Virus record (IMG/VR): IMGVR_UViG_3300010885_039203
Coordinates: 1-23,253 of that record
DNA from: a virus
Length of the DNA: 23,253 nt
Strand: one strand, 5' to 3'
This document shows, one piece after another, positions 20,171 to 23,253 of this stretch (position 1 is its first letter; every line of letters begins with the position of its first letter). The notes under the pieces were generated by a model. That model saw only the letters and a program-made list of their open reading frames with translations. It did not search any database and had not been told where the DNA came from. The position numbers and the translations under genes were made by a program.

Positions 20171-20197
20171 GTGGCGGAGGTTATCCGCCACTATTTT
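20171..20197 (+). terminator. Rho-independent terminator of the late operon
   Basis: GTGGCGGA (20171-20178) pairs with TCCGCCAC (20184-20191), a perfect 8-bp stem with a 5-nt loop, followed by TATTTT. It ends rightward transcription before the convergent minus-strand operon. The T tract overlaps the stop codon of the last minus-strand gene (20196-20198). There is no T tract on the minus-strand side. Confidence 0.85.
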
Positions 20198-20741: not shown

Positions 20742-20997
20742 CTTGCAGGCTCTTTCTAAATTGTCTAAGTTCATATTCCATTCTGGCTAGTTTGCACTTG
20801 AAATCTAGTAATGGTAGGTTGTTGTCACGATGTATTCGTATCTTTCCATGACAATCGGATATTTCTACAAAGGTGTATCTACTTAATGTTTGCCCTCTAT
20901 TCTCTAAATCCTCGCCATCAAAGCAAACTATGCTTCCAGTATAGTGTGAAGTTTCTTGATTAAGCCAAATTCGGCGGTTGTAATTGATCTTGCTCAT
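20734..20997 (-). CDS. Hypothetical protein (87 aa)
   Basis: The start ATG 20997 has AGGA 8 bases upstream, inside the 3' end of rep, which it overlaps by 38 bases in another frame. The N-terminal 65 residues are beta-like (RRIWLNQETSHYTGSIVCF, TFVEISDCHGKIRIHR) and the C terminus is a basic helix (LARMEYELRQFRKSLQDA). Two Cys are present but no clear metal motif. It is the second gene of the rep operon. Function unknown; a replication accessory or copy-control factor is a guess from position only. Confidence 0.62.
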   Translation of the reverse strand: MSKINYNRRIWLNQETSHYTGSIVCFDGEDLENRGQTLSRYTFVEISDCHGKIRIHRDNNLPLLDFKCKLARMEYELRQFRKSLQDA

Positions 20998-21709
20998 CTA
21001 GTAGTCCTATTTCTTTGGTTTTAATGGAAAATTTAATATGAGTTTTCTTATTGCCTTGTGAATCATAGTTTACATTAACAACTAAGTCACTTAGCATGTT
21101 TATATCTCGTAAAGCTGGCTCAATTACTTTGTCACGAAGGTTATTAAAGCGAGTATACTCTTCTGGCGAGTAACCCATGAGCCTTTTAAACTCTGCAATA
21201 GGTAAGCGCACTTTTCTAGCTACTTTCCACTTATTTAATATACGATACAAGCGTATACTATGTACACTTTTCATCTGTTTGGTGTTTTGCAAGTTATAGC
21301 CGGAATATAATTTACTTTCCCCAAATATACAAATGAAAGGAATAATATCTCTATGCCATTTTATAAGCACTTTAGATGTTTCAGGGTCGTAAATTGCTGA
21401 ATGTACCCAATGAATAATTGTTTTACTGCTTGCTTTAGCTTCTGGATTAAGTAAAGAAGTTTTTAATGTGAGTGTTCTAGTCATTAAACTTCTAGCTGAT
21501 TGCTCCATTATTTGATAAGCTGAATGTTTGTCCAAGTTAAACCAATCTGCATACTCTTGCAGGTCTACTTCATAGTATGTATCCTCGTCTATTGCTTCTT
21601 TTTGGAATATCTTACCAAGACAGATTTGCATTAGTTTTATTTCGCCAAGATGCAGTTTATGGTAGCTATCTAGTATTTCGTGTCCTTCACATATAACTAA
21701 ATCTTTCAT
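20960..21709 (-). CDS. Plasmid replication initiator, Rep_3 (RepB/Pi-type) family
   Basis: A 249-aa initiator with the two winged-helix layout of the Rep_3 family. The first domain spans about residues 10-125 (ILDSYHKLHLGEIKLMQICL, then YYEVDLQEYADWFNLD and SARSLMTRTL). The second spans about 140-235 with the family signature SVHSIRLYRILNKW at about 149-161, followed by LPIAEFKRLMGY and FNNLRDKVIEPALRDIN at about 188-204. Such proteins bind iterons as monomers to open the origin, and dimers often repress their own promoter. ATG 21709 follows GGAGA. It is read away from the iterons at 21828-21884 and leads an operon with four small genes. It implies that the element can replicate as a plasmid. 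Confidence 0.93.
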   Translation of the reverse strand: MKDLVICEGHEILDSYHKLHLGEIKLMQICLGKIFQKEAIDEDTYYEVDLQEYADWFNLDKHSAYQIMEQSARSLMTRTLTLKTSLLNPEAKASSKTIIHWVHSAIYDPETSKVLIKWHRDIIPFICIFGESKLYSGYNLQNTKQMKSVHSIRLYRILNKWKVARKVRLPIAEFKRLMGYSPEEYTRFNNLRDKVIEPALRDINMLSDLVVNVNYDSQGNKKTHIKFSIKTKEIGLLDEQDQLQPPNLA

Positions 21710-21733
21710 ATTTTCTCCGATTGACCAGCGACT

Positions 21734-21762
21734 ATATTAACATGATTTTGTAGGCGATACAA
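21734..21762 (-). promoter_or_regulatory. Promoter of the rep operon
   Basis: On the minus strand TTGTAT (21762-21757) and TAATAT (21739-21734) are separated by exactly 17 bases, and TG precedes the -10 region. Transcription would start about 18-20 bases before the rep ATG. A perfect TTGACA (21788-21783) lies further upstream but has no well-spaced -10. Confidence 0.55.
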
Positions 21763-21827
21763 GTTTCTGCTGCATTTTACTTTGTCAAGTAGTTTATTAG
21801 CAACCCACACTCTCCCCCAAATGTCAA

Positions 21828-21884
21828 TACCCTCTATTTTTGTAGTCGTTACCCTCTAAAAGTGTAGTCGCTTATCCTCTGTAG
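21828..21884 (-). repeat. Iterons of the plasmid origin
   Basis: Two 22-bp direct repeats, 21828-21849 and 21850-21871, share TACCCTCTA at one end and GTAGTCG at the other with a variable 4-5-bp middle. A degenerate, shorter third copy (TATCCTCT then GTAGC) follows to about 21884. The 22-bp period equals two helical turns, typical for Rep_3 iterons, and the repeats lie about 120 bp upstream of the rep start. The third copy also contains TTATCCTCT, a 7/9 match to a DnaA box. Confidence 0.78.
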
Positions 21885-21939
21885 CCCTTGCCAGCCGTGG
21901 CTTCCGGTACTCCTAAAAGCTATTAAAAGTTACAATCAA

Positions 21940-22020
21940 AAACCGCACTGCTACTATATTATTATATACAATAACATAATCAGCAAAATAGCATATAGTA
22001 TTACTAAATCTGCATAATAC
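21940..22020. other. AT-rich stretch next to the iterons (possible unwinding element)
   Basis: About 80 bases of mostly A and T (for example TATATTATTATATACAATAA) lie about 60 bp from the iterons on the side away from rep. This position suits the DNA-unwinding element of an iteron origin; the assignment is by position and composition only. Confidence 0.45.
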
Positions 22021-22059
22021 AATCTCAGCCACGATGCAAATTGCCGCTGGTAGGGTAGC

Positions 22060-22125
22060 AATCCCGCCTAAAATCGCCCAGAATCGCCCCAAAATCGGCA
22101 GAATATCCACTCAAATCGCCGCAAA
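22060..22125. repeat. Phased tandem array of AATCGCC repeats
   Basis: Units of consensus AATCGCCCMRA recur with ATCG starting at 22073, 22083, 22094 and 22115, a degenerate unit (ATATCCACT) in the 22105 slot, and a related unit (AATCCCGCC) at 22060. Spacings of 10-11 bp put every copy on the same face of the helix, as expected for cooperative protein binding. ATATCCACT (22103-22111) is also a 7/9 match to a DnaA box. Confidence 0.6.
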
Positions 22126-22248
22126 ACGTGGGTAATTGCCGTGGCGAAGCAGCCGTAAATACTAATACTAATCGCAAAACATGCTGTAACTATAAGTTAT
22201 GTAGCTGTGCCGTATGGATAATTGTAGTAGCTGTTTGCTGAATTGTCT

Positions 22249-22866
22249 GATAGCTTCGCCGGAGCTGCATTGGCGTATATAATATAAGTAATAGTGTAAT
22301 AAATGCTGGATAGCTGCGCCGCGGAGCTGCATACAATAATAATAATATGTAGCTTCGCCGCTGTTAGTTGTTGTATTTGGTGGTGTAGGTGCATGGATAG
22401 CTTCGCCGCACCCGTTGATACAGTAATATATATACGCACGTACATGCCGTATAAAGCTGGCGAAGCTACATAATGCTCATGTTAGCATGCCGTACTACTG
22501 ATAGTTGGTATGTTGTGCTTATTTTGTGTTGTAGGATAGCTGCGCCGGGTATTATATATACGTACATTGCCGGGAGCTGCATATAGTATCAATACAATGT
22601 GTACATACAGTATAGTTGTATGTTGCGGATGTTGTATGCTGCGGATGTTGTATTGTAGGATAGCTACGCCGAAGCATTTTATAATATATATATAATACAC
22701 CTCCCGTTCGGTAGTTGTGCGGCGGAGCTGCATATGTAGTATCCGTAGTGGTGTATAGGTATGGTAATGTAGTAGCTGAGTAGCATAAGTGTATGGATAG
22801 CTGCGCCGAGCCGTATAGTATTATAATGCATACAGGTATCCGCTTGTAGTGCTGGCGAAGCTGCAT
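22249..22866. repeat. Family of GC-rich inverted-repeat elements (about 7 copies)
   Basis: Left arms (GGATAGCTKCGCCG or close variants) lie at 22249-22261, 22308-22321, 22349-22360, 22395-22408, 22534-22547, 22658-22671 and 22795-22808. Right arms (GGCGAAGCTGCAT or variants) lie at 22260-22270, 22322-22332, 22457-22471, 22571-22582, 22721-22733 and 22852-22866. Arms are always in left-right order, and each left arm except the third has its own right arm. Two units are collapsed to 22-25 bp; four enclose AT-rich interiors and are 49-77 bp. The fourth and fifth units share interior sequence (ATATATACG then GTACAT and GCCG), so they are copies of one element. A degenerate arm (GTAGCTGTGCCG) lies at 22201. 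Confidence 0.8.
22616..22663. repeat. 16-bp tandem repeat
   Basis: TTGTATGTTGCGGATG (22616-22631) is followed directly by TTGTATGCTGCGGATG (22632-22647), differing at one base, and then by a diverged third unit TTGTATTGTAGGATAG (22648-22663) whose end is the start of a GGATAGCT arm. There are no spacers between units, so it is not a CRISPR. Confidence 0.75.
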
Positions 22867-22914
22867 TTGTAGTAGTAATAGTAAATATAATCGTATATTA
22901 GCCGTTGTGATTGG

Positions 22915-22943
22915 GTTTGCCGTAGTATTATTGTATATATAAT
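22915..22943 (+). promoter_or_regulatory. Possible promoter for the structured RNA
   Basis: A perfect TATAAT lies at 22938-22943. The -35 is poor (GTTTGC at 22915-22920, 17-bp spacer). Transcription would begin near 22950, about 30 bases before the long helix. TATA-rich DNA makes chance matches common here. Confidence 0.3.
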
Positions 22944-22980
22944 AGGTAGGCGTGGCAAAGTAGTATTTAGATAGTAATTA

Positions 22981-23096
22981 TAAGGTGCTATGGTGGAAAA
23001 ATTTGGTATGTAGATGGAGGTCGCCTAGTAAGTTTACGCAATATCACCAGTTCCGCCAAGTACCTTACCCCTAGTACCACTAGCACTAGGGGTTTT
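22981..23096 (+). ncRNA. Candidate structured small RNA ending at an intrinsic terminator
   Basis: TAAGGTGCT (22981-22989) and TGGTGGAA (22991-22998) pair with TTCCGCCA (23051-23058) and AGTACCTTA (23059-23067), giving 17 base pairs with one bulged A (22990) and two G-U pairs. Inside, TGGT-ATGT (23004-23011) pairs with ATAT-C-ACCA (23041-23049) as an 8-bp helix with one bulge, and the tip can form two small hairpins (AGG-TCG-CCT at 23018-23026; GTA-AGTT-TAC at 23028-23037). The closing helix ends one base before the stem of a strong terminator, so the two would stack. No open frame of useful length occupies it. I recognise no known RNA family; an antisense or regulatory RNA is possible. No covariation data are available from one sequence. 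Confidence 0.5.
23068..23096 (+). terminator. Rho-independent terminator
   Basis: CCCCTAGT (23068-23075) pairs perfectly with ACTAGGGG (23085-23092) around a 9-nt loop, followed by TTTT (23093-23096) and GTTGTTG. Its presence with no gene upstream on this strand for almost 3 kb implies a non-coding transcript. Confidence 0.85.
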
Positions 23097-23116
23097 GTTG
23101 TTGTTACTTGATTAAG

Positions 23117-23251
23117 CTTGGCATGTGCCAGGCAATGATAATTGTTATTGCTACTAGCAGTAGCTCAATGATGGCGCCTGCCAACAACAGCACTACTTAT
23201 CCCCCTTGGGGAGGGTGACATACCATCCGACTGGTATGGATAGCTCATCCA
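23117..23251. repeat. Run of consecutive short hairpins
   Basis: Seven adjacent inverted repeats: CTTGGC/GCCAGG (23117-23132), ATAA/TTAT (23138-23148), GCTACT/AGTAGC (23150-23164), TGGC/GCCA (23172-23183), CCCC/GGGG (23202-23211), CATACCA/TGGTATG (23219-23238, 7 bp perfect) and TGGAT/ATCCA (23237-23251). The last contains GGATAGCT, the start of the left arm of the upstream repeat family. The run continues to the window edge and may extend beyond it. Confidence 0.55.
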
Positions 23252-23253
23252 CT

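Follow-up and report, generated by a model that had tools for sequence, protein, structure and literature searches.

Terminated leaders and other structured RNAs of phages

In lambdoid phages, termination of the late leader at tR' yields a small RNA known as StxS (PMC7873438). Late leaders of this pR'-tR' type, which include lambda 6S RNA, are short intergenic noncoding transcripts that end at an intrinsic terminator and precede the late operon. A different structured RNA, putRNA of phage HK022, folds into two stem-loops within about 73 nt and acts on terminators located further downstream (PMC9378689). The element considered here is a long hairpin (E1) followed by an intrinsic terminator near the end of a viral contig, and its nearest known arrangement, by analogy, is the terminated lambdoid late leader. 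Like the latter, it would be a short intergenic noncoding phage transcript, and it combines a strong intrinsic terminator with a putative leader in which no ORF is found. However, it has no sequence match to these leaders, the nearest phage relative has no such structure, and a promoter, a downstream operon and an antiterminator are not seen in this record; the module that it would precede is one that we infer.

The resemblance to HK022 put RNA is confined to a structured phage RNA of about 70-90 nt associated with terminators. A put RNA comprises two neighbouring stem-loops within about 70 nt, whereas E1 is a single long hairpin placed directly against its terminator, and membership was rejected. 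GOLLD and ROOL share with this locus a long noncoding stretch in a phage genome, but there is no Rfam match to them. One large ornate RNA was likewise rejected, as the 918-nt fold is ordinary on the plus strand (z -1.33) and not stronger than on the minus strand (z -2.66).

Genomic context

The window is the complete linear IMG/VR virus record IMGVR_UViG_3300010885_039203, with a length of 23,253 bases. It carries a lambda-like tail module with homologues of minor tail proteins and of the fibre J, beginning with a first tail gene at 37-984, as well as holin and GH19 lysozyme genes. No head genes are seen, and the record is therefore probably a fragment. A strong intrinsic terminator lies at 991-1009, right behind the first tail gene and within the tail module, and the late genes end at a terminator of their own after the lysozyme gene (20171-20191). 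A Rep_3 initiator gene (20960-21709) is part of a minus-strand operon, beyond which a noncoding stretch (21710-23253) reaches the contig end. The element is situated in this stretch, with the Rep_3 gene 1.3 kb away and the contig end about 150 nt past its terminator.

Two repeat arrays occupy other parts of the noncoding stretch. Just upstream of the Rep_3 gene, at 21823-21888, are tandem 22-bp repeats with a TACCCTCTA core, which are likely iterons of a Rep_3 origin. Between 22202 and 22866, about a dozen copies of the motif AGCTNCGCC(G) occur in both, largely alternating, orientations, such that neighbours could pair as hairpins. When one mismatch is allowed, TAGCTNCGCCG has 11 matches against 0.55 expected, 10 of them within 22202-22866. 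The two-unit pattern of this array found one IMG/VR match, which is a lone copy, along with 20 genome matches in single copy, approximately the number expected by chance. The array resembles REP-like or protein-binding repeats.

A long hairpin directly against an intrinsic terminator

E1 spans 87 bases of the plus strand (22981-23067) and is closed by a helix with arms at 22981-22998 and 23051-23067. The 17-bp closing helix of the original prediction holds, with two of its 17 pairs being G-U and with A22990 bulged. The minimum free energy of 22980-23068 is -31.9 kcal/mol (z -4.55), a value equalled by one of 4000 self-shuffles on the plus strand, while the minus strand folds more weakly (z -2.16). 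Together with the terminator (22981-23096), E1 forms the lowest-energy window among 4628 sampled windows of 116 nt on both strands of the contig. The 8-bp internal helix that had also been proposed was not recovered: the folding model places two 6-bp helices in the interior, and by themselves the 51 internal nt are no more stable than shuffled sequences (z +0.23).

The intrinsic terminator (23067-23105, plus strand) adjoins E1 directly, as had been claimed. It consists of a 9-pair stem at 23067-23093 followed by TTTGTTGTTGTT, with the arrangement ACCCCUAGU-loop-ACUAGGGGU plus UUUGUUGUUGUU (dG -13.4, z -3.59). Its stem energy of -13.4 compares with -14.6 for the terminator after the lysozyme gene (20171) and -12.9 for that after the first tail gene (991), and among the nine candidates in the contig that combine a hairpin with a U-tract, this terminator has the highest U-tract score. 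The U-tract is interrupted by a G after four U, which we take to make it a poor Hfq tail. In agreement with the statement that no coding sequence explains the terminator, no plus-strand gene ends at this site. The 3' end of a late transcript is unlikely here, since the late genes are followed by a separate terminator (20171-20191).

Downstream of the terminator, a second stem-closed fold (E2, 23115-23200) is stronger on the plus strand (z -2.69) than on the minus strand (z -0.53), and after correction for composition, the most extreme window of the region is the one that begins at 23112. The segment 23097-23253 as a whole (plus strand, z -3.98) contains E2 as well as additional short hairpins, among them CATACCA-N6-TGGTATG, up to the contig end. 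These structures could belong to a longer structured leader or to a packaging region.

Significance of the fold

When the 1.5-kb noncoding region was shuffled, a composition-corrected 89-nt window as extreme as that of E1 appeared in 23 of 150 shuffled regions (15%), so that the helix by itself does not clearly exceed chance expectation. Without composition correction, the most stable window of 41% of the shuffled regions equals or exceeds the region's own best. These frequencies, together with an interior that is not structured beyond chance, fit an explanation in which E1 is a functionless chance hairpin beside a plain intrinsic terminator whose role is to insulate the origin region or to stop a spurious plus-strand transcript. 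We regard this as quite possible, though on balance doubtful: the helix abuts the terminator and is biased to the plus strand, and the two structures together are the most stable sampled window of their size in the contig.

Since the region-wide null matches E1 in 23 of 150 cases, the case for the element lies in helix, terminator and strand bias taken together and not in the helix alone. Windows anchored on the terminator are unusual at 90 and 100 nt (0 and 2 of 1000 shuffles, respectively) and much less so when shorter than 90 or longer than 100 nt. The 90-mer upstream of the 23067-23093 terminator has a z of -3.74, compared to +0.50 and -0.37 for those upstream of the terminators at 20171 and 991.

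A signal at the level of DNA, such as a single-strand initiation site or a packaging site, is conceivable for a locus that is 1.3 kb away from the Rep_3 gene, may have a terminase module nearby and is followed by more hairpins up to the contig end. However, folding of the element as single-stranded DNA is unremarkable (z -1.90 and +0.61) and the G-U pairs of the E1 helix form in the plus-strand RNA only, making this explanation highly improbable.

Searches for homologues and relatives

Only one sequence of the element is known. A search of Rfam 15, a check put forward with the original prediction, found no family at the gathering score and nothing over E1. Below the cut-off, CyVA-1 (12.8 bits, cut-off 41.4) touches the terminator and Fluoride (13.2 bits, cut-off 34) falls at 23122-23187, both at chance level. 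No homologue was found by distant blastn against phages and plasmids, at thresholds of 1e-5 and 10, and an exact 18-mer had no hit in IMG/VR. An exact 16-mer occurs there in 95 stretches, in which blastn lengthens the match to a maximum of 29 nt at 86%, and these matches are therefore attributed to chance. A covariance model built from the single sequence (R1) found no homologue in 42 sources, in related phage records or in 369 genomes drawn from one class, which may not be that of the host.

Kin sought through the Rep, tail and GH19 proteins were related only at the level of the tail or the lysozyme, and none of those tested carries Rep_3. Among phages, G001 is the nearest relative judged by its tail proteins (45-49% in the J region); it has no Rep_3. 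In G001, plus-strand head genes, with a terminase recognised by eye and not by profile, directly follow an intergenic region beside minus-strand genes. Given this arrangement, the next module past the contig end may plausibly consist of head genes. At the corresponding place before its head genes, G001 has no structured leader (z +1.10).

Promoter-like sites, coding potential and possible targets

An exact consensus match to a -10 box, TATAAT, is located on the plus strand at 22938-22943, 38 nt upstream of the E1 hairpin, with a weak -35 (TTGCCG) at a spacing of 15 nt. Judging from this consensus match, a start here would possibly produce an RNA of about 150 nt. Promoter-like sites in the noncoding region are present at chance level in number. 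The best match of the region lies on the minus strand at 22930-22958 (TTGCCA-17-TACAAT, 10/12); it overlaps the possible plus-strand -10 box and would read toward rep.

Coding was rejected: the longest plus-strand frame, of 46 codons, lacks an ATG, GTG or TTG start and matches no family, and peptides of the longer open frames around E1 matched nothing in Pfam and PHROG. No tRNA or tmRNA was found. Attenuation by a leader peptide (MVEKFGM, 22990-23013) was considered; the terminator still forms when the 5' arm of E1 is blocked, and thus no attenuator switch is predicted.

A role as an antisense copy-number RNA of the replicon finds no support in the complementarity to the rep 5' region: 59 of 362 background windows pair equally well or better. 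An autonomous sRNA of about 150 nt, comparable to StxS, could alternatively pair in trans with phage or host messages. Its size, its own terminator and a possible -10 box of its own agree with such a role, and lambdoid phages make sRNAs of this kind by termination of the late leader (PMC7873438). However, no target was found, complementarity to rep is ordinary and the U-tract is interrupted, and we consider a trans-acting sRNA unlikely.

A proposed terminated transcript as leader or insulator

Of the original prediction, a plus-strand noncoding transcript ending near 23096 stands as plausible from its good terminator, the lack of an ORF, the plus-strand structural bias and the exact TATAAT; a novel structured RNA is not established, with no homologue and a weak region-corrected significance. 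We tentatively prefer a short, terminated plus-strand noncoding transcript, roughly 150 nt in length, with a role in cis as leader or insulator. It would be made between the minus-strand rep operon and the missing module past the contig end, from a putative promoter, with E1 as the body of the transcript and the 23067-23093 hairpin halting transcription. The terminator would thereby shield the next genes from incoming transcription. If those genes were late genes, they might be released by readthrough or antitermination, as in the pR'-tR' terminated leader of lambdoid phages.

The leader or insulator is favoured because the terminator matches the stem energy of two real gene ends and has the top U-tract score, because it alone of the three terminators compared follows a structured 90-mer, and because the plus strand folds better than the minus strand, with an unremarkable single-stranded DNA fold and an exact TATAAT upstream. 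It is weakened by the absence of a structured leader in G001, the lack of a homologue, the chance level of promoter-like sites and the absence of a predicted attenuator switch. It seems improbable that the locus encodes an undescribed kind of phage RNA whose hairpin, placed against an intrinsic terminator and perhaps in concert with E2, determines the extent of readthrough into the module downstream.

At present, the element is a candidate of modest strength, based on one sequence. If real, it would provide a terminated noncoding transcript for a Rep_3-replicon phage lineage that has no close relative in the searched collections, as well as a defined terminator for measurements of readthrough.
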